Below, one piece after another: positions 15,027 to 38,608 of a DNA stretch of 40,042 nucleotides (position 1 is its first letter; every line of letters starts with the position of its first letter). The notes beneath the pieces are model-generated. The model made no database searches, was not told where the DNA came from, and saw nothing but the letters and a program-made list of their open reading frames with translations. Origin of the DNA: Acidobacteriota bacterium (GTDB lineage Bacteria > Acidobacteriota > Thermoanaerobaculia > Thermoanaerobaculales > Sulfomarinibacteraceae); contig JAADFK010000232.1 of the NCBI GenBank assembly GCA_013152925.1, positions 1-40,042 of the forward strand, read 5' to 3'. The position numbers were made by a program, and so were the translations under genes.

Positions 15027-15080
15027 TCACATACCGTGGAAATGCCGCCAGACCTGGGAGCCCAGGCGCCGACCCAGGGC
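15027..15080 (-). pseudogene. uvrC: Duplicate uvrC 3' end (left direct repeat)
   Basis: Read on the minus strand, this stretch encodes LGSQVWRHFHGM and a TGA stop, matching the final LGSQVWRHFHGK of the intact uvrC. Compared with 20327-20380, 48 of 54 bases agree, including 26 consecutive identical bases (15043-15068 and 20343-20368). The offset is exactly 5300 bp, and the stop codons align. Protein-level resemblance may extend about eight residues further upstream (YERLDRALG against DELRRALG) and then fades. It is therefore a remnant or attachment-type duplication of uvrC, in direct orientation. Confidence 0.75.
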
Positions 15081-15303
15081 TCTGTCCAACCTCTCGTATT
15101 CCTCCCTGAACCACGCGTCCTCTCTCCGGAATCCCGAACAATCCTTCGCCGCTCGATACACGGTTGTCCCCGTCGTACGCCGCACCGGCGCCCGGAATCC
15201 TCCCTTTCCTTCCCAAGCTTCCTCTCTCCCACCCTATCCCAAATCATGGATATGGAATCCTAGAACGGTAGAAGCCACAATTGCTCAATGGCACCCTTTC
15301 GTT
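15081..15303. other. Gene-free stretch between the uvrC copy and the cassette array
   Basis: This is pyrimidine-rich on the + strand (about 15110-15240) and becomes AT-richer toward the first attC. I see no convincing gene, integrase or promoter. It would contain the left junction of any inserted element. Confidence 0.4.
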
Positions 15304-15423
15304 TCATAACGTCGCGCTTAACCGGCAGGCCGGAGTGGCGTTTGAATTGTGCAATAATGACCGAAGGGACTGCACAATCCAAACGCCGCGGACGACTGTC
15401 CGTGTTGAAGCGCCTTGTTATGT
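15304..15423 (-). repeat. attC site 1 (end of cassette 1)
   Basis: This is an integron recombination site of about 120 bp read on the minus strand. It opens with R'' ACATAAC (15423-15417) and AAGGCGCTTCAA, and closes with TTAAGCGCGACGTTATGA (R' GTTATGA at 15310-15304). Between them are long inverted arms, 15337-15353 and 15371-15387, that pair at 16 of 17 positions. The TAA stop of the cassette gene lies inside R''. These are the hallmarks of attC: conserved ends and a variable palindromic middle. Confidence 0.85.
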
Positions 15424-16512
15424 TTCATTTTGATTGAATAATCTCTCTTCAAACCTTAAACCATTGCCGCATAAACTCTCAATAAATTCTATAGGACTAA
15501 ATATTTGTTCAATATGAAAAACTCCAAATGGAAACGAAGAATTGTAAAGTTTCTCAGCAACCTTAGCCGCTACTGATCCTGTATTCTTCCCTTCTCCATA
15601 TCCGGCTATTGAACATTCATATAACACACCTTCTTCCCGGTTACTTCCTGCTTCAACCTTTAGAACAAATTGGTTTGAACCCAAACGAACCCTTTGTAAA
15701 ACTTGAATCATAACATCTTGCACAACCCTTAGCTTGACAATGTTGCTCAAACCTGTTTTTTTCAATAGAGCATACAACCCAGTCATTGCAACGGAATCAA
15801 AACATACCCGTGTTGAAGCCGAATCGATATTGAGAGTTTTCGGAATAACATGCTGGTCCGAAAAATTAGAGCGATAAGTAGTTCTTGTCCCAATACGACC
15901 TGGAAATATTGTTTGTTTCCCATCTTCAAAGCTCTTTACAAGTCTTTTCTTCCCATCTTCTCTGATAACGAACTGATCATTCAGGTCTTCAAGTGCCCAA
16001 CGAATCGCCGCCTTTCCATGCTTTTCCCCAAGGCCGAGCATTATATAGATGTCGGCGTATTGCATATCCTGAATCACCAAGCTACAGTGCTTCGCCAAAA
16101 GGTTCGTGAGACCAGGAGCCAACCCAACACTTACAACAACAGTTGAATTATGATTTTTAGCTTCTTCATTTAATGATTCGATCTTAGAAAGAAATTCATA
16201 ATTTGCTGTGATGTCAATATAATGAATTCCCCGTTTTATACACTGTTCAACAAAATGAGTGTTCTTTTGATCAATGCACATGATAATAATACTGACATTT
16301 TCTAGCCGATCATCATCTTTTGGAACTGATGTTGAAATATCCAATTCCAACGGTATGACCTTCTGATCCAATTTTGATGAAAACCCCTTTGCTTTTTGAA
16401 AATCTCTCCCAGCAACAATCACTTCACCGGGAAATAAATTTCCCAAGGTAGTGGAAATAACTCCTCCAACCGCACCATATCCTCCTACAACCAAAATCTT
16501 ACCATTGCCCAA
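15418..16512 (-). CDS. Cassette gene 1: saccharopine-dehydrogenase-like protein
   Basis: This 364-residue protein has an N-terminal Rossmann nucleotide-binding fold (VVGGYGAVGG at about 7-16, then a basic residue after strand 2 in VAGRD) and the SVGLAPGLTNLLA motif near the domain junction, as in saccharopine dehydrogenase-like reductases. The start is TTG at 16512, fixed by a perfect AGGAGG seven bases upstream (six if GGT is counted); no ATG fits. The stop TAA is part of attC site 1. Base composition is strikingly AT-rich (about 40% GC by eye) in a 70% GC chromosome, so it was acquired from a different kind of genome. An opine or amino-acid reductase role is possible. The substrate is unknown. 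Confidence 0.8.
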   Translation of the reverse strand: MGNGKILVVGGYGAVGGVISTTLGNLFPGEVIVAGRDFQKAKGFSSKLDQKVIPLELDISTSVPKDDDRLENVSIIIMCIDQKNTHFVEQCIKRGIHYIDITANYEFLSKIESLNEEAKNHNSTVVVSVGLAPGLTNLLAKHCSLVIQDMQYADIYIMLGLGEKHGKAAIRWALEDLNDQFVIREDGKKRLVKSFEDGKQTIFPGRIGTRTTYRSNFSDQHVIPKTLNIDSASTRVCFDSVAMTGLYALLKKTGLSNIVKLRVVQDVMIQVLQRVRLGSNQFVLKVEAGSNREEGVLYECSIAGYGEGKNTGSVAAKVAEKLYNSSFPFGVFHIEQIFSPIEFIESLCGNGLRFEERLFNQNET

Positions 16513-16540
16513 AATAACCTCCTACGAACGACTTTTAGGA

Positions 16541-16612
16541 ACATAACGACTAAGCTCACCTGCCGCTATGGAGCGCAGCGAAATAGCGGTCAGGTCGAGC
16601 GCCTTGTTGGGC
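16541..16612 (-). repeat. attC site 2 (end of cassette 2)
   Basis: This is a 72-bp attC on the minus strand: R'' GCCCAAC (16612-16606) with AAGGCGCTCGACC, then near-perfect arms around CCGCTATTTCG and CATAGCGG, closing in GGTGAGCTTAGTCGTTATGT (R' at 16547-16541). GTTGGGC on the + strand matches the canonical GTTRRRY core. It lies 10 bp after the cassette-2 stop and 28 bp before the cassette-1 start, exactly where an attC belongs. Confidence 0.88.
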
Positions 16613-16622
16613 GGCAATCCCA

Positions 16623-18332
16623 TTATGACATCCAATTTTCTATGCTCTCAAGCTCGTTGGCGACTTGTGCGCAGACATGCTGGAAGTGATTGGCGAACGT
16701 TTCATGCTCCATCAAAGCATCCTGTGCCAACCTCTGGGCCTCGTTCCCTTCGACATGTCCCTTGGCCTTTGAACGCAAGAGCTGGACCGTCCGCAAACCG
16801 ACCAGCTTCTGAATGTCCCCCGGTGTGCCGGTCTTGCTCAGGAGCTTTTCGAGCAACGCGATCGTCTTGTCCTCCTTTTCGTATGGAACTTGCACTGCAT
16901 CGAGTCTCGCTCGGATCGCTTTTGTTTCGAAACCCTCGATGACCAGCTTTGCGAGGGCCATGAAGGCTTCAGCCCATTCATCGCGACTCGCCGTCAGGGG
17001 CGTATTCACACGGTCAAGCAGCTTCTCGTCCCGAAGTGTCCACCATGCTACCTTGTCATGGCGCCAGCGCTGAACGATAGAAAGAACCTTACCCAAAGGC
17101 TGTACGAAGTTCACAAACTCGCCCTTGAAATCATTGATGAAGGCGCGTTCGGAAATACTGGGCTTCGGCGGCTCGTTGAAGGAACGCCAGTGTAACTGCT
17201 CTTCGTATGGAAGGCGACGCAGATAGCAGATGTAAGCGTGTACCTGGCCAGCTTCGTTGACGTCGATTGCTTCAAGGTGCCACGTCGCCCGGCATGAGAC
17301 ATCGCGTTCGCCCACCGTGTACTTGTCACGGTCCGCCTTGTATTTCAGCAGAACCTCTGGTCGGAAGAACGCGGGCGATAGTTCGAAAGGCAGCGCGTTT
17401 CCTTTGGCCTGAAAATAGTTCGTCGTGGCCGCAGGATCGGTGGAGATTTTCGTCACACGCTTGTTGCGCCAGTCGTAAGCAATGAACTCGACATACTCCT
17501 TGTTCTTCTTTCCGAACCACCCGTCCTTGATACCCGTGAAAATTGCTTTGGGAGAGCGACGGATGCGGATAATCTGGGCACCTCGCGTGTAAGCCGCATA
17601 GCCAGATACGACTTTTCGGCGGTAGAAGAAATCTGGCGATTCGGTGATTTCCTGCTCCGGTTCATCTGACCAACCAGAGAAACTGGAGCGCCGCAGCAAC
17701 GTGAAATCAAACATCCTTACTAGCGAGGCGTTGGACGCCGCAAGATACTCTTCCAGCGGCTCCCACTTGAAGGAGACAAGGGCCATGTTGCTACCCTTGT
17801 CTTCGCGACTGGTCACGGAGACAACAGACTCAAGGTCGCCATGTTCATTGAAACGGCAGTAGGCCCGCTTTTCTGGACGCCAATGGATGCCCATCAGATG
17901 GGCGCACTCCTGGTGGAGCTCGTAATAAGTGCGGCCCTGCCCAGTCCAACCTTCGAACGTCCGGCCAAAGATCAACTGCACCGCATTCTCCAGAGTTTTG
18001 GTACCTGTCCCACTCAGTCCCCGTTCAACCCAAACATCCTCGCGCCCACCCCCGGTTACATAGCTGGCTACTGACGTATACGGGTTCAAGCTCCAATGCA
18101 ACAAGTCGTTCTGGTCAAGAGGTGTGAGCCGGTCATTCGCAACGGCCACCGTGTGGATGAATGTATATTCTCCTGACGCGTAAATGACTAGTTCATTTTC
18201 GCTAGCGTTGCTGCGTAGAAAATCGAGGTGCGCTTCAGCTTTTATCCACTGAGAAAAGGATTCGGGCTCAGTTGGCAGCTCGTCGAGCTTAGTGATTCTC
18301 TCAATCAACTTCCTGTGCTCGTAATTGTACAT
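16623..18332 (-). CDS. Cassette gene 2: 569-residue protein of unknown function
   Basis: I do not recognise the family. The start is ATG at 18332 (MYNYEHRKL) with GAGAGGAGAG upstream; the frame is open further, but that part runs into attC. No signal peptide or membrane helix is seen, so the protein is probably cytoplasmic. It is rich in Trp and aromatic residues. A conserved-looking stretch near residue 405 (PYEEQLHWRSFNEPP) is followed by a helical C-terminus. This contains R520 and H526 in RSKAKGH, an R-x5-H arrangement that falls within the loose R-x4-6-H rule for HEPN ribonucleases. That match is short and may be chance. Composition is intermediate (about 50% GC), unlike the host. A defence role is a hypothesis drawn from its cassette setting. 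Confidence 0.8.
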   Translation of the reverse strand: MYNYEHRKLIERITKLDELPTEPESFSQWIKAEAHLDFLRSNASENELVIYASGEYTFIHTVAVANDRLTPLDQNDLLHWSLNPYTSVASYVTGGGREDVWVERGLSGTGTKTLENAVQLIFGRTFEGWTGQGRTYYELHQECAHLMGIHWRPEKRAYCRFNEHGDLESVVSVTSREDKGSNMALVSFKWEPLEEYLAASNASLVRMFDFTLLRRSSFSGWSDEPEQEITESPDFFYRRKVVSGYAAYTRGAQIIRIRRSPKAIFTGIKDGWFGKKNKEYVEFIAYDWRNKRVTKISTDPAATTNYFQAKGNALPFELSPAFFRPEVLLKYKADRDKYTVGERDVSCRATWHLEAIDVNEAGQVHAYICYLRRLPYEEQLHWRSFNEPPKPSISERAFINDFKGEFVNFVQPLGKVLSIVQRWRHDKVAWWTLRDEKLLDRVNTPLTASRDEWAEAFMALAKLVIEGFETKAIRARLDAVQVPYEKEDKTIALLEKLLSKTGTPGDIQKLVGLRTVQLLRSKAKGHVEGNEAQRLAQDALMEHETFANHFQHVCAQVANELESIENWMS

Positions 18333-18397
18333 CTGTTCTCTCCTCTCACTCGACCTCGGTGACCTTAGCGCAAAAACGCGTGCTCTCGCATGATCAC

Positions 18398-18529
18398 GCC
18401 TAACGCTACGGCTCAGGGGCGGCAAACACGCGGAGCAACCAACCTCGAATTACCAATGAGCCTTATGCGGGGCACTGCCTTGGAAAAACCGCCACGCTGT
18501 TTGCCGTCCCTTGCAGCCGATTGTTATGT
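18398..18529 (-). repeat. attC site 3 (end of cassette 3)
   Basis: This is a 132-bp attC on the minus strand. It starts with R'' ACATAAC (18529-18523) and AATCGGCTGCAAGGGACGGC and ends with CCCTGAGCCGTAGCGTTAGGC shortened to R' GTTAGGC (18404-18398), which is fully canonical. The arms GGCTGCAAGGGACGGCAAAC and GTTTGCCGCCCCTGAGCC pair well. It lies between the small cassette gene and cassette gene 2, as expected for cassette 3. Confidence 0.88.
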
Positions 18530-18614
18530 GCGGCTGATTTCGTTTACAAGCGCTTGCCTTTGTGCTGTTGTTTCTATGACCCGCGCTTGATATCGCCTAA
18601 TCGGATCGAATAAC

Positions 18615-18809
18615 TCATTCGCTGCAACAGGGTTGAACATCGCCAATCAGTCTATAACGCCCCAACTCTTCAAGCCAATTAGCGATTGTTGCTGCGCCGA
18701 TATTGCGAAGTTTTGGATCATCTGTTTGTGTTGCATAACCATCAGGAGTTTTCTGATATACTGAAATACCGATCTCGAGCAAGCGCCTTATCAACACCCT
18801 GTCATTCAT
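18615..18809 (-). CDS. Cassette gene 3: 64-residue protein of unknown function
   Basis: This small soluble protein begins at ATG 18809, with AGGGAG ten bases upstream, 28 bp after the R' of attC site 4. It has no membrane segment and no recognisable motif. The sequence predicts two helices separated by a loop (LIRRLLEIGISVYQ and AATIANWLEELGRYR), ending in QPCCSE. Its place between two attC sites is the strongest evidence that it is a real cassette gene. Small unknown proteins are typical cassette cargo; an antitoxin, immunity or regulatory role is possible but unsupported. Confidence 0.6.
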   Translation of the reverse strand: MNDRVLIRRLLEIGISVYQKTPDGYATQTDDPKLRNIGAATIANWLEELGRYRLIGDVQPCCSE

Positions 18810-18836
18810 CGCTTATCTCCCTGCGGTTTATAACGC

Positions 18837-18894
18837 ACATAACTACTAATTATGCGTCCAAAGTGACGTGTTGTCACGCAGCGAAGCGTTATGC
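18837..18894 (-). repeat. attC site 4 (start boundary of cassette 3)
   Basis: This short site (58 bp) on the minus strand runs from R'' GCATAAC (18894-18888) and GCTTCGCTG, through a hairpin CGTGAC-loop-GTCAC, to TTAGTAGTTATGT (R' at 18843-18837). It is near the lower size limit for attC and less symmetrical than the other three. Its position just before cassette gene 3 and its matching orientation support it. Confidence 0.7.
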
Positions 18895-19289
18895 GTCATT
18901 GGATTGGTTACCTCCATATCACATGGTATCATGACGATGCTTCCCCACCCACGCTGCCGAAGGAGTGTATGTGTTGTGCGGCAACACGTCATCCGCGGGG
19001 GGACCGGCAGATCTGTTGGACCGTGTTCGGGAAGCATCCAGAGCTCGGTATCTCAGCTACCGGATGGACCCTGCCCCTCCGGGGAGCACTGCTCCGCGCT
19101 GCCCTACCACCGGGTTCCGGCCTTTCCTCCGCGTCCCTGGACCTCCGCGACTCTGCTTTCTATTCTCCCCTTCTGGCTTCCTCTCTCTGGGTTCTCCGCG
19201 TCCTCCGCCTCCTCCGCACGAAACTCTCTTCTGCCTACCGCCACCCCGGTTACCTCGACATCGCCCAATCGCTCGGCTCGGCATGGAGG
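18895..19289. other. Gene-free stretch upstream of the array
   Basis: No integrase gene or attI is visible here or elsewhere in the window. On the minus strand, an open frame (19037-18846) ends inside attC site 4, with GGAGG near 18912 and NPMTHNASLRDN at its end. It could be the tail of a truncated further cassette, but evidence is thin. From about 19125 to 19260 the + strand is pyrimidine-rich, with CTCCGCGTCCTCCGCCTCC, part of the dispersed repeat seen also near 600 and 20250. Confidence 0.4.
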
Positions 19290-19324: not shown

Positions 19325-19561
19325 ATGAACGTGACGCTCTCCATCGACGATCGCATCGTGGAGCGGGCAAGGGAGCTGGCGGCCCGTCAGGGCACCTCTC
19401 TCAACCAAATGATCCGGCAGCTTCTGGAAGAGGCCACTGCGGCCTCGTCGCCCGATGTTCTCCTTGCGGAGCTCGAAGAGCTCTGGGAAGCCGAGGTTGG
19501 GGACTCGGGCGGCCGCTCGTGGCGGCGGGATGAGCTGTATGACCGGCCCGTTCTTCGTTGA
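19325..19561 (+). CDS. vapB: VapB-like ribbon-helix-helix antitoxin
   Basis: This 78-residue protein has an N-terminal ribbon-helix-helix DNA-binding fold (NVTLSIDDRIVERARELAAR, then TSLNQMIRQLLEEA at about 25-38), followed by an acidic C-terminal tail that would wrap the toxin. The strand sequence at residues 2-6 contacts DNA in this family. ATG at 19325 is probably the first base of the transcript. The gene overlaps the toxin start by 23 bp. The protein is expected to neutralise the PIN-domain toxin and repress the promoter by binding the palindrome across the -10 box. Confidence 0.85.
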   Translation: MNVTLSIDDRIVERARELAARQGTSLNQMIRQLLEEATAASSPDVLLAELEELWEAEVGDSGGRSWRRDELYDRPVLR

Positions 19562-19970
19562 CACGAACGTCCTGGTATACGCCGATGACCGGAGCTCGGG
19601 ACCCAAACAGGCCCTGGCTCAGGATCTGATCCGGTCGGCTTTCCGGTCCGCCTTCGGAACCGTGTCAACCCAGGTCCTCGCAGAGCTTTTTGCCGTCGCG
19701 ACCCGGAAACTGGGGCTCCCGGCGAAGTCGGTCCGCCGCAGAGTCGAAATCTACTCCTCGCTCCGCGTCCACCGGCTTGCCCCGGATGACCTGCTTGCGG
19801 CCATCGACCTCCACCGCCTCCATGAGCTCTCCATCTGGGATGCGCTGATCGTACGATCGGCGCTGGTCACCGGCTGCCGCGTCCTGTACACCGAGGACCT
19901 GCAGCACGGACAGACCTTCGACGGCCTCCGCATCGTCAACCCCTTCACAGAGCCCACTGCCCGCCCGTGA
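19539..19970 (+). CDS. vapC: VapC-like PIN-domain ribonuclease toxin
   Basis: This 143-residue PIN-domain protein is a metal-dependent RNase of the VapC toxin type. The acidic residues are visible: D8 in FFVDTNVLVYADD, E43 in LAELFAV, D101 in IWDALIV, and a final acid near TEDLQHG. Start choice: ATG at 19539 gives MTGPFFVDTN. ATG at 19530 (MSCMTG) is an in-frame alternative with GGCGGGA just before it. Either overlaps the antitoxin end, as is usual for the pair. The nearby cassettes show how such modules gather in accessory DNA, but the GC content of this pair looks host-like. Confidence 0.88.
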   Translation: MTGPFFVDTNVLVYADDRSSGPKQALAQDLIRSAFRSAFGTVSTQVLAELFAVATRKLGLPAKSVRRRVEIYSSLRVHRLAPDDLLAAIDLHRLHELSIWDALIVRSALVTGCRVLYTEDLQHGQTFDGLRIVNPFTEPTARP

Positions 19971-20326: not shown

Positions 20327-22135
20327 TCACTTCCCGTGGAAGTGCCGCCAGACCTGGGAGCCCAGGCGGGGGCCCAGGGCGCGGCGGAGCTCGTCCTCGG
20401 TGGCGTTGCGGACGGCGCGGAGGGAGCCGAAGCGGGTCAGGAGGGTGCGGGCGCGGCCCGGGCCGATGCCGGGAATCTCCAGGAGCTCGGTGGCCAGGTT
20501 GCGCTTACGGCGACGGCGGCGGTGGCGGGAGACGGCGAAGCGGTGGGCCTCGTCCCGGATCTGCCGGAACACCAGGTGGGCGGGATCCGAGGGGTCGAGG
20601 CGCAGGGGCTCCTCGCGGCCCGGCAGGTGGAGCAGCTCCTCGCGCTTGGCCAGGGCCGCCAGGTCGAGCTGGAGGCCCAGGGCATCCAGGGCCGCCATGG
20701 CGGCGTTGAGCTGGCCCGCGCCGCCGTCGATCAGCACGAGGTCCGGCAGCTCGCCGCCCTCGTCGCGCAGCCGCCGGTAGCGCCGGGTGACGGCCTCGGC
20801 CACGGCGGCGAAGTCGTCCACGCCGTCGAGCCCGCGGATGTTGAAGCTGCGGTACCGTTTCTTGGCCATCCGGCCCCGCTCCCAGACGACACAGGAGGCG
20901 GTCGTGTCCTTGCCGGAGGCGTGGGAGATGTCGAAGCACTCGATGGTGTGGACGGGCTCGTCCAGGCCCAGGGCCTCGGCGATCCTTCGTCCCAGGGCCT
21001 CACCCCGGGCCAGTGCGGCGCGGAAACGCAGCTCGAAGGCCGCCCGGGCGTTGGCCCGCGCCAGCTCCACGCGCCGCGCCCTCGGACCGCGCCGGGGTGC
21101 TGCGATCTCCACCAGCCGGCCGCGCTTCTCACTGAGGAAGGCGGCCGTCAGCAAGCGGTCGTCCTCGTCCAGGGCCACGGCCGTGTCGATGCGGGCCGGA
21201 ACGGCGGGGTTGGCCTCGTAGAACTGGGCGATGAAGCTCGCCAGCAACTCGGCGGCCGGCACGTCGCCGATACCCTCGAAGTGCAGCTCCCTCTTGTCCA
21301 CCAGCGAGCCGCCGCGGTAGGGAAGCACACAGACCGTGGCATTCTCACCGTCGGAGAAGACCGCCAGCACGTCGGCATCCCTGCGCCCGGGCAGCTCGAC
21401 GTTCTGGGGCTCGGCCAGCCGTCGTACCACGGCGAGCAGGTCACGGTAACGCGCGGCGTGCTCGTACTCCTGGTGTTCCGCAGCCCGCCACATGGCAGTC
21501 TCCAGGCGAGGCAGGAGCTCACGGTGGCGGCCGGAAAGGAAGAGCTCGAGCTCCTCCACGGCTTCCCGGTACGCTTCAGGTGTGGTCAGACCCTCGACGC
21601 AGGGCGCCAGACAGGCCCCCATGTTGTAGTAGAGGCAGGGGCGTGAGAGCTTGCCATCGATCTCCATGCGGCACGTGCGAACCTGGAAGCGCGTCCGGGC
21701 CAGCTCCATCAGGCGCCGGGCCATGCGCTGGCCCATGTAGGGCCCGAAGTACCTGTGGCCGTCGTCGCGAACCCGCCGTGTCAGCTCGACACGTGGCCAC
21801 TGCTCACCCGTCGTGACCCGGATATACGGGTAGGTCTTGTCGTCACGGAGCAGGACGTTGTACGGCGGTTTGTGCCGCTTGATCAGGGTGTTCTCCAGGA
21901 TCAAGGCCTCGACCTCGCTGGAGGTCACGGTGAAGTCCAGGCCCCGAGCACGCTCCATCAGGCGTCGCGTTCGTTCCGGGAGCTCTCCCTTCGTGAAGTA
22001 GGAGAGCACGCGGCGCCTGAGAATCCGGGCCTTGCCCACGTAGAGCACCTCGCCGTCCGCCGCGAGAAAGCGGTAGACGCCCGGCGCCTCGGGAGCGGAT
22101 CGTGCCCGGCCACGGAGCGGATGTTCCGGCGCCAC
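20327..22135 (-). CDS. uvrC: Excinuclease ABC subunit C (UvrC)
   Basis: UvrC makes both incisions in nucleotide excision repair. The 602-residue protein has the GIY-YIG nuclease (GVY at 19-21, YVGKA at 32-36), the cysteine cluster CLYYNMGACLAPC (near 166-178) known to bind an iron-sulphur cluster in E. coli UvrC, a UVR motif (EHQEYEHAARYRDLL), the RNase-H-like nuclease with FDISHASG and LVLIDGGAGQ, and C-terminal helix-hairpin-helix repeats (LEIPGIGPGRARTLL). The start is GTG at 22135. It lies 16 bp after rnc, so the two form an operon. The last 54 bases, with stop, are duplicated at 15027-15080. Confidence 0.95.
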   Translation of the reverse strand: MAPEHPLRGRARSAPEAPGVYRFLAADGEVLYVGKARILRRRVLSYFTKGELPERTRRLMERARGLDFTVTSSEVEALILENTLIKRHKPPYNVLLRDDKTYPYIRVTTGEQWPRVELTRRVRDDGHRYFGPYMGQRMARRLMELARTRFQVRTCRMEIDGKLSRPCLYYNMGACLAPCVEGLTTPEAYREAVEELELFLSGRHRELLPRLETAMWRAAEHQEYEHAARYRDLLAVVRRLAEPQNVELPGRRDADVLAVFSDGENATVCVLPYRGGSLVDKRELHFEGIGDVPAAELLASFIAQFYEANPAVPARIDTAVALDEDDRLLTAAFLSEKRGRLVEIAAPRRGPRARRVELARANARAAFELRFRAALARGEALGRRIAEALGLDEPVHTIECFDISHASGKDTTASCVVWERGRMAKKRYRSFNIRGLDGVDDFAAVAEAVTRRYRRLRDEGGELPDLVLIDGGAGQLNAAMAALDALGLQLDLAALAKREELLHLPGREEPLRLDPSDPAHLVFRQIRDEAHRFAVSRHRRRRRKRNLATELLEIPGIGPGRARTLLTRFGSLRAVRNATEDELRRALGPRLGSQVWRHFHGK

Positions 22136-35824: not shown

Positions 35825-36901
35825 CTATATACTATTCACATATCTTTTGCTTACATAAGGTGAAGTCATGACTGAAAGCAACGCTCCGTAATTGAGATCA
35901 AACACAACTTCGTCCCCTGTCTTCAAGCCTTCCTTCTTCGCATTCATTATGACATGATCACCACTTGCACCCAGGATATCAATATCCAATAAGGGAGTTA
36001 GTCCGGAAACAGGAACATCCTGTAACCCCACTCCGAGAATAACTCTTCGTATTTGGCCGTGATCCTTGAACCCGGGAACATTTCCGAATGCATCCTGACA
36101 AACTTCTCCGTAAGGAATGGACGGCTTTATCTTAGATTCAATGACCTCTGCAATCAGCATAAATGCATCTGTGTATAATCCGGGAATAGGCGTTCTATAG
36201 AGGGTTTCGCACCCCAAATAGATAGATTCGCCCAATCTCAAGTTATTGATCCTTCCGGTATTTCCACCGGACACGAACCAGGTATAATTGGCCGAGTTCC
36301 CGCCGGAAACAATCTCCAATGAGAGTCCGAACCTTTCTTCTATATCTCCGGCAAGGGAGGACAGGTACTCCATTTTCTCCTCGTCCGGTTTGATTCCCCC
36401 GAAACAGGCCAGATTCGTACCTATGCCTGCGAGCTCGATTCCTTCCAGCAACAGTACCTCTTGAACTGCGTCCTCTAAATCCGAAGGCATCAATCCCTCT
36501 CTCAAATCACCTGACTCCACCATTAAGATAACTTTATGTGCAGTGTTATTGTTCACGGCGAACTTTGAGAGCATTTTGACCACTGACAGCTCCGAATTAA
36601 GACTGATGTCGGCATACTTGACTACCGATTCAGCCTGGCTGGGAATGGGTGTTCTCAACAGGACAAACTGTGCCTGTATGCCTGCCTCACGCATCCTCCT
36701 GATATTTGTTATCCTTGAATCGCCAAGAGTATGTATTCCGCTTTTTACAAGGACCCCTGCAATACGGGGGTCTCCGCAAACGACCTTTGTGACGCCAGTT
36801 ACGCAGATGCCTCTTGAACCGTATAGCCTCTTTAACTTCTCAGCATTATGTGCGATTTTTGCAAGGTCTATCTCTATTCTGGGTGTTGTCACATCGATCA
36901 C
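35825..36901 (-). CDS. Alanine/ornithine-racemase-like PLP enzyme
   Basis: This 358-residue protein has an alanine-racemase-type TIM barrel, with the PLP lysine K39 in CVTGVTKVVCGD and a C-terminal beta domain with LGASGDHVIMN. It resembles ornithine racemase (Orr) and YhfX-like proteins more than Alr. The start is GTG at 36901, sharing one base with the upstream stop (TAGTG), which points to coupling. A GTG at 36892 is an alternative. The gene is AT-rich, like its operon partner and unlike the chromosome. It probably racemises or binds an amino acid or its N-acyl derivative. The substrate is unproven. Confidence 0.8.
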   Translation of the reverse strand: MIDVTTPRIEIDLAKIAHNAEKLKRLYGSRGICVTGVTKVVCGDPRIAGVLVKSGIHTLGDSRITNIRRMREAGIQAQFVLLRTPIPSQAESVVKYADISLNSELSVVKMLSKFAVNNNTAHKVILMVESGDLREGLMPSDLEDAVQEVLLLEGIELAGIGTNLACFGGIKPDEEKMEYLSSLAGDIEERFGLSLEIVSGGNSANYTWFVSGGNTGRINNLRLGESIYLGCETLYRTPIPGLYTDAFMLIAEVIESKIKPSIPYGEVCQDAFGNVPGFKDHGQIRRVILGVGLQDVPVSGLTPLLDIDILGASGDHVIMNAKKEGLKTGDEVVFDLNYGALLSVMTSPYVSKRYVNSI

Positions 36902-37968
36902 TATTCCTTCGGCAGCTCCGGAAATGCTTCGAATATACTTGTGACAAGTTTGTCGCACCCGTACTTTAGGACATCCGTTGTTGGTAACCGGAACATCTCT
37001 TCATAATCGCTTATTGCCCTTATGATTTCCCCATCGATCATATCTTCGTGGTTGATTGTGATAGCGATTACCTTCGATCCTGAAAAGACTTCTATCATCT
37101 CTATCTCACTTTCCAGGGTCGGCATTGGTACATAAGGAAAATCTCCGAGGTTCTTTCTTTTCGGCGGGTGCTGAACGATAATAGCCTTCGGCTTTGCACC
37201 CCGTACAATGGCACATGAGCTAAGGTATGCAGGATGGCTGAGGGCACCCTGGCCTTCGACTATAATTACGTCCGGATGCTCCGTGTCCTCTGCTTCCATA
37301 ACTGCATTTTCGATTTCCCCCGTCATAAACTCTTCGACAATCGCATCCACTGCAACGCCGTACTTTGCGCCCTGAATTAATCCTGTCTGTCCGGTTGCCA
37401 CGAACGCGACGTTTAGCGCCTCTTTCCTCAATGCTTCTACAAGGATCATCGATGAGGTTCTCTTGCCAACAGCGCTGTCTGTGCCAAGTATGGCCACTAT
37501 TGGCGTGCCGACCTTTAGAATGCGCCCTGAGAAAAGATGTAATTCCTTTTTTGCGGGAGGTTTTCTGACATCGTATATTCTGACCCCGCACTCGTTTGCC
37601 TTTTGCGTAAACTCTTCATCATCCGTAAAGAACTCATGAAGGCCGTTTACTATGTTCATCCCCTTTTCCATCGCCTTGAGTATTATCTTCCTCTGCTCCT
37701 TCTTAAGAAATGCCTCAAGAGGCGCAACGCCGTATATGAAATATCCCGGAATCTCCTTTAGTCTCGTAATGGCGTCATCGAGATCACGGAATATACGTAT
37801 CCCGGTTTTTACTCCCTCGAGATACTCTCCGGCATCCATACCCGCCTTTGTACTGTCGATGACACCGGCGATCTCGTACTTTTCAGAATGCCTTACAAGT
37901 CCGTTGGCAGTCTTTCCATCCATCTTCCCGAATTCGTTTTCACAATATACTATTGCCTTTGTTTTCAT
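36901..37968 (-). CDS. DUF1611 family protein (DgcN-like, P-loop)
   Basis: This 355-residue protein belongs to DUF1611. It has an N-terminal Rossmann-like domain (about 1-145) and a C-terminal P-loop domain starting GTDSAVGKRT at 162-171, with VIIVEGQGALSHP further on. The family includes DgcN, a D-glutamate N-acetyltransferase of marine bacteria. Whether this protein does the same is not shown. The ATG at 37968 has only a weak ribosome site. It is in an operon with the racemase-like gene and shares its AT-rich base composition. The pairing suggests D-amino-acid metabolism. Confidence 0.8.
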   Translation of the reverse strand: MKTKAIVYCENEFGKMDGKTANGLVRHSEKYEIAGVIDSTKAGMDAGEYLEGVKTGIRIFRDLDDAITRLKEIPGYFIYGVAPLEAFLKKEQRKIILKAMEKGMNIVNGLHEFFTDDEEFTQKANECGVRIYDVRKPPAKKELHLFSGRILKVGTPIVAILGTDSAVGKRTSSMILVEALRKEALNVAFVATGQTGLIQGAKYGVAVDAIVEEFMTGEIENAVMEAEDTEHPDVIIVEGQGALSHPAYLSSCAIVRGAKPKAIIVQHPPKRKNLGDFPYVPMPTLESEIEMIEVFSGSKVIAITINHEDMIDGEIIRAISDYEEMFRLPTTDVLKYGCDKLVTSIFEAFPELPKE

Positions 37969-38194: not shown

Positions 38195-38608
38195 GTGATG
38201 CACCTTGCGGGCGGGATGGGGTGGGCGCAGGCTTGGGGCGTGCGGAATGAGCGTTCGATTGCTGGATTCGAGCTGGCGCGGGAGATCGGGGTGACCCGTG
38301 GGGGCCGGACGCGGTGGCGTTGTCCGGCGGATGTCCGTCAGCGTGTCGTGGGATATGCGCGGGAGCGTCACACGGCGGGTTGGGCCTGGAAGGAGGTGGC
38401 CGCCGAGCTTGGGGTGGCGTGTTCAGCGCTCAGGCTGTGGGTGAAGGCCGGAGGCGAGGAGAGGCCAGGCGCTCTGGTGCCGGTGTCGGTCCGGGGGCTG
38501 GGTGTCTTGGGATCCGGGGGCTCGGCCGGGGTGCTGACGCTGGTATCGCCGGCGGGGTACCGGACGTTAACGCGTATGTCCCCCAGCACCCCGGGCTCCA
38601 ACCGGTGA
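38195..38608 (+). CDS. IS66-type TnpA-like small protein (orphan)
   Basis: This 137-residue protein has a helix-turn-helix-like region (about 45-82: PADVRQRVVGYARERHTAGWAW, shortened, then ELGVACSALRLWV). The later GALVPVSV and GVLTLVSPAGYRTL strands recall the C-terminal end of IS66 accessory protein TnpA. No TnpB or TnpC transposase follows. It is thus an orphan or relic of an insertion sequence, or a TnpA-like regulator. The GTG start at 38195 is uncertain; GTG at 38240 is also possible. GC content is host-like. Confidence 0.5.
   Translation: MMHLAGGMGWAQAWGVRNERSIAGFELAREIGVTRGGRTRWRCPADVRQRVVGYARERHTAGWAWKEVAAELGVACSALRLWVKAGGEERPGALVPVSVRGLGVLGSGGSAGVLTLVSPAGYRTLTRMSPSTPGSNR

Follow-up and report, generated by a model that had tools for sequence, protein, structure and literature searches.

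A very probable integron relic in an Acidobacteriota genome: a cassette array with a conserved attI site and a remnant of the integrase gene

Public genomes contain clusters of attC sites without an integrase, known as CALINs (PMC9024848), about as often as they contain complete integrons (PMC9024848). It is seldom visible whether a given cluster arose by loss of an integrase or by stray insertion of cassettes. This question is raised by an array in a member of the Acidobacteriota. The window analyzed here, 40,042 nucleotides in length, is all of contig C232 from a draft genome of 3.67 Mb, a metagenome-assembled genome (MAG) in 237 contigs that is 95.9% complete. The array occupies the minus strand in the middle of this contig and consists of attI, cassettes 1 to 3 and three attC sites, all in one orientation. 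A sequence-only reading had described it as a CALIN in which four attC sites delimit three cassettes, with neither integrase nor attI in the window. The results presented below lead us to regard the array as, very probably, the CALIN-like relic of an integron in which the integrase decayed in place and attI was kept. The features discussed are collected in Table 1.

Table 1. Features of the array and its borders, in coordinates of the window.
Feature	Position	Strand	Details
IS-end remnant (probable), distal array border	15062..15260	+	79% identical to C225:658-857 of the same genome
attC3, final site of array	15304..15423	-	scanner 32; fold z -6 to -7; missed by covariance model
Cassette 3	15310..16546	-	1237 bp; bounded by attC2 and attC3 cores
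Gene 3	15418..16512	-	364 aa; saccharopine-dehydrogenase-like NAD(P)-binding protein
attC2	16541..16612	-	scanner 25.8; covariance model 35.7 bits, E 6.5e-7, top in window; fold z about -2.6
Cassette 2	16547..18403	-	1857 bp; bounded by attC1 and attC2 cores
Gene 2	16623..18332	-	569 aa
attC1	18398..18529	-	scanner 31-32; covariance model 15.9 bits, E 0.05, second in window
Cassette 1	18404..18842	-	439 bp, crossover to crossover; bounded by attI and attC1 cores
Gene 1	18615..18809	-	64 aa; from ORF list and sequence
attI and intI-attI spacer	18837..18967	-	nine-copy alignment; crossover G^TTATGT between 18843 and 18842
Short ORF MTHNASLRDNTSLWTHN and stop	18899-18846	-	ends beside crossover; with GGAGG spans 18846..18915
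Shine-Dalgarno GGAGG	18915-18911	-	from sequence
Candidate extended -10 element TGATACCAT	18923..18931	-	TGnTACSATG conserved in nine aligned copies
intI 5' stub	about 18965..19075	+	tblastn and DNA identity; reads ...NTSSAGGPADLLDRVREASRARYLSYR, then unrelated sequence

The attC sites were sought with a scanner that scores the R''/R' consensus, the complementarity of R'' and R' and the pairing of the L arms. It was calibrated on 78 loci that hold intI, where, at a cut-off of at least 24, the 175 kb of the array side (minus strand) yielded 101 sites and the 319 kb of the opposite side yielded 3. Exactly three sites in the whole 40 kb window reach this cut-off, and these are attC1, attC2 and attC3. 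With the threshold raised to 25.8, the value attained by attC2 as the lowest scorer, 40 shuffled windows contained 0.2 sites per window and in no case had three inside a 4 kb stretch; real sequence from outside arrays, 164 kb in all, contained none. A home-made covariance model, built from 23 attC sites that all belong to other genomes and distinct from the model of IntegronFinder, ranked 16539-16614 first in the window (E 6.5e-7) and 18396-18531 second (E 0.05). The third site, 15304-15423, went undetected by the model; its fold is the strongest, and none of 200 shuffles was equally stable. In one search of the host genome with the covariance model only attC2 was found, and at gathering scores Rfam gave no match within the window. 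Each of the three sites has R'' and R' cores, folded arms with an extra base and a hairpin on the bottom strand, and all three are real attC sites. The fourth site of the sequence-only reading, 18837-18894, lacks these features. It forms no hairpin (fold z of -0.3 and -0.7), is not matched by the covariance model, and its copies part right after the G^TTA core; as an attC site it was rejected.

The segment 18837-18894, together with an adjoining 160 nt or so, recurs in the host genome and in relatives. Nine aligned copies of this leader agree up to GTAGTTA and have nothing in common afterwards. Because the cassette side diverges right after the G^TTA core, the segment is the end of an attI; by the alignment, this divergence is the pattern expected of an attI into which different cassettes have been inserted at G^TT. 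A leader model places the site immediately upstream of a complete intI at G016:C40 (24.9 bits) and also next to a contig-truncated intI at G012:C356, where about 0.3 kb of integrase sequence reaches the contig end (68%, E 5e-43). At both loci attC arrays lie on the cassette side of attI, opposite intI. Both genomes belong to the family of the host. G016 is a Thermoanaerobaculales MAG of the Acidobacteriota with an integrase identical to that of 'Thermoanaerobaculales bacterium GMC4.metabat2.271', which places the host, an uncultured acidobacterium, in this family of the class Thermoanaerobaculia. The stub in the window is short and a weak match by itself, aligning with residues 26-54 of the intact IntI of a family member at 45% identity (tblastn, E 0.006), and its identification draws on homology to longer stubs. 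The stub region has 75% DNA identity over 225 nt with G013:C89, where the stub runs on as IntI to about residue 83 (a 64-residue piece, 61% identity, E 3e-19). Since the leader copies run into intI, and since the leader stands upstream of a complete intI at G016:C40, the window holds both an attI (about 18838-18967) and the 5' stub of an intI, contrary to what had been read from the sequence. Directly past the stub, at 19325-19970, there is a VapBC-like pair, comprising an RHH antitoxin and a PIN toxin.

An intact integrase gene was also looked for in the rest of the genome, as had been proposed. In this MAG, 95.9% complete as noted, no intI exceeds the cut-off of 265 bits, and the best score, 69 bits, comes from Xer-type recombinases; as the assembly is fragmented, an intI may still lie in the missing part. 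Two XerC-like recombinases of the PRK01287 family are encoded on contigs C188 and C110, each directly 3' of a gene of about 360 aa; the latter two genes belong to one family, and the pairs probably represent a separate mobile element. In the class as a whole, 44 of 149 genomes have an intI match over the cut-off, which weakens the earlier suggestion that an array is unusual in a genome of such high GC content. Within the family such matches occur only in G002 and G016.

Measured against a complete integron, the locus has an attI that adjoins the first cassette and cassettes with attC sites in the same orientation, and in place of an intact intI beside attI it has only the 5' stub. Measured against a CALIN, which requires at least two attC sites without a neighboring integrase, it has three by scanner and fold or two by the covariance model, and the integrase is a stub. 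The description as a CALIN with three cassettes thus holds for the three attC sites and for the absence of an intI over the cut-off, and fails insofar as a bare CALIN was meant. Because attI and the first 30 or so codons of intI are retained, the array is read as an integron decayed in place, and its attI is one of at least four in this genome. Such an integron, with a divergent intI, an attI and a promoter, would have taken up cassettes singly at attI by the usual IntI reaction, in which the folded bottom strand of the attC of a circular cassette recombines with double-stranded attI at G^TT. The intI gene would later have been cut down to its first 30 or so codons, leaving behind attI, promoter-like and ribosome-binding signals and three cassettes that would now be fixed unless an integrase acts in trans. 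Within the family, the attI would also have been copied to a number of genomic locations, and those copies would have lost intI too.

The leader model, run over 147 genomes of the class, counted four attI copies in the host genome, five in G008, six in G013, seven in G001, three in G007, two in G012 and four in G016, and gave a single weaker match in each of two further genomes. Nearly all of these copies are without intI and they head different genes. In most of those examined the distance from the core to the start of the gene is about 5-50 nt, and the genes vary, among them HicB/HicA, BrnT-like, Phd/YefM antitoxin, pyridoxamine-oxidase-like and uncharacterized genes. The covariance model detects attC in the sense direction on the cassette side at G000 C187, G008 C170 and C67, and G013 C89, and in G012 and G016. 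Behind most other copies none was found, many of the stretches being short or bounded by contig edges. Branching in a tree of the attI copies is mostly unresolved, and our simplest guess is that they spread by duplication of the integron followed by decay. At G000 C92 and G008 C49 the gene that follows attI is of the HicB type (HicBA in G008), and such genes may stabilize stranded attI loci. A coarse literature search, short on subscription journals, returned no report of several integrase-less attI copies per genome.

Comparison of individual copies bears on whether these sites are still in use. In G008, the copies on C170 and C44 are about 94% identical over some 395 nt of the integrase side and on through attI. 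In both, intI is already truncated, and from GTTAG on they are wholly different. Two copies in G001, on C293 and C238, behave likewise at attI, without a recognizable intI. As the G008 copies are alike through the truncated intI and diverge exactly at the crossover, the alignments indicate that the heading cassette was probably exchanged once the local integrase was gone. At G013:C194 carA is separated from a Gfo/Idh-type gene by an attI-bearing insert of about 4.5 kb; the congener G008 (C139) has about 220 bp at this position, which suggests that attI-led units come and go. All of this would be accommodated if the dispersed attI copies were docking sites served in trans by an integrase located elsewhere or brought in by an incoming element, a proposal that adds to the relic reading. 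The integron of the family would then have broken apart into numerous scattered attI platforms without an integrase, each with cassettes of its own behind it and still loaded in trans, in effect a distributed integron. We consider both the service in trans and this wider picture possible but on the doubtful side. No complete intI is detectable in the copy-rich genomes G000, G008, G013, G001 and G007, most attI copies look decayed, and the two G008 copies could represent a single locus as carried by two strains within the MAG. A two-strain reading of that pair would likewise need turnover after truncation.

The other explanations concern the array itself. The cassettes might have entered by off-target insertion at a secondary chromosomal site where no integron was ever present, as an intact intI is absent nearby and CALINs of Xanthomonas are known at several loci away from intI (PMC12444791). 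This origin is largely refuted by the conserved attI and the intI 5' stub that adjoin cassette 1, and we judge it very improbable. The strong difference in GC content that had been remarked on is real, with 49, 54 and 40% in cassettes 1, 2 and 3 against 68-70% (about 69%) outside; so abrupt a change in a MAG could also reflect a foreign low-GC piece joined to the contig in assembly or binning. This is slightly less probable still, given that the array lies within the contig, that the flanking sequence on either side is 72-82% identical to genomes of the same family and that three further contigs of the host genome carry the attI leader. Least credible is the reading of the leader as a repeat with no relation to integrons and of the attC-like hairpins as products of chance. 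The leader does occur in several copies, many of them close to contig ends in the manner of repeats, but it stands beside intI and true arrays in two genomes, its copies diverge exactly at the crossover, and the null counts and the covariance model match (E 6.5e-7) speak against coincidence.

At the distal border, the counterpart of 15062-15260 on C225 starts about 50 bp past the stop of a transposase-like ORF, and from this similarity the segment is a probable remnant of an IS end. A 54-bp direct repeat (89%) is present at 15027-15080, beside the distal end of the array, and at 20327-20380, the 3' end of uvrC. No empty site for the array was found, crcB/DUF190 and uvrC not being neighbors in the relatives examined. 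A second low-GC island (about 47%, 35825-37968) carries an operon of a DgcN/DUF1611-like and an ornithine/alanine-racemase-like gene; a transposase-like ORF lies nearby at 38195, and the island has no attC site.

Read in the direction of the array, leader copies present TGnTACSAT, then GGAG, then an ATG that begins a frame of 16-19 codons closing at the core. The arrangement of GGAG, 11-13 nt and ATG occurs in 16 of 31 leader copies, and in 15 of these 16 the ORF is open. From its conservation, TGATACCAT is a possible cassette promoter, Pc. The codon positions of the short ORF vary equally; the idea of a selected peptide was dropped for want of codon-position bias, and this suggests that only the initiation signals, and not the peptide, matter. 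The attI leader probably drives the expression of cassette 1. The arrangement of the short ORF resembles that of ORF-11/ORF-17 in the attI1 of class 1 integrons, where a short ORF with GGAG and ATG likewise lies inside attI and ends at the crossover (PMC8876359); ORF-11 is a translational enhancer of similar layout, the peptide of which matters little (PMC8876359). In contrast to attI1, the sequence here is unrelated, stop codons fall just before the crossover, and the element is known from sequence.

As the sequence-only reading had stated, each of the three intervals contains a gene on the same strand. Gene 1 is probably frameshifted, by one base near 18623 and through either a true mutation or an assembly error: the next frame continues uninterrupted as far as a TAA (18526-18524) in R'' of attC1. 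We found no family or homologue for it, and none in plasmids. For gene 2, a purine-rich ribosome site just before the ATG at 18332 makes this a more likely start than 18425. Its product matched no known family, no relatives were found in viral contigs or phages, and a structure prediction from the single sequence had a pLDDT of 33. Its best relative, in G278, is 55% identical. On a Pseudomonas aeruginosa plasmid a homologue (32%) lies two genes from a SAVED-HNH effector, beyond which a CD-NTase and a ThiF protein complete a CBASS-like set; in P. syringae a homologue directly follows gmtY and gmtX, and further family members are found on Rhodococcus and Streptomyces plasmids. By association with the CBASS and gmtY/gmtX neighbors, we would guess that gene 2 is a candidate anti-phage defense gene. 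Gene 3 matches PF03435 (34.6 bits, cut-off 25.1) and has 58% identical pieces in Stanieria. The earlier observation of a stop codon within an R'' applies to this gene, its TAA lying at 15420-15418 in R'' of attC3.

Integron decay and CALINs are already known (PMC2426708, PMC12444791, PMC9024848), and published tools already draw on acidobacterial attC sites (PMC12444791). As in integrons with an inactivated intI, the pseudo-integrons (PMC2426708) and those of Xanthomonas (PMC12444791), intI has decayed here and the array persists. Unlike in those, there are several intI-less attI copies per genome, and in one relative the heading gene probably changed after truncation of the integrase. The array differs from a CALIN in keeping an attI and an intI stub, with sister attI copies scattered in the genome. 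An attI outside class 1 integrons escapes IntegronFinder (PMC9024848), and loci like this one would therefore be filed as bare CALINs.

The attI and the stub settle, for this array, the choice between integrase loss and stray insertion. A search for attI is a route to integron relics that software based on attC alone files as bare CALINs, and cassette 2 offers a candidate new defense gene. For the family, the multiple copies of attI amount to natural experiments on the use of docking sites that lack an integrase of their own.
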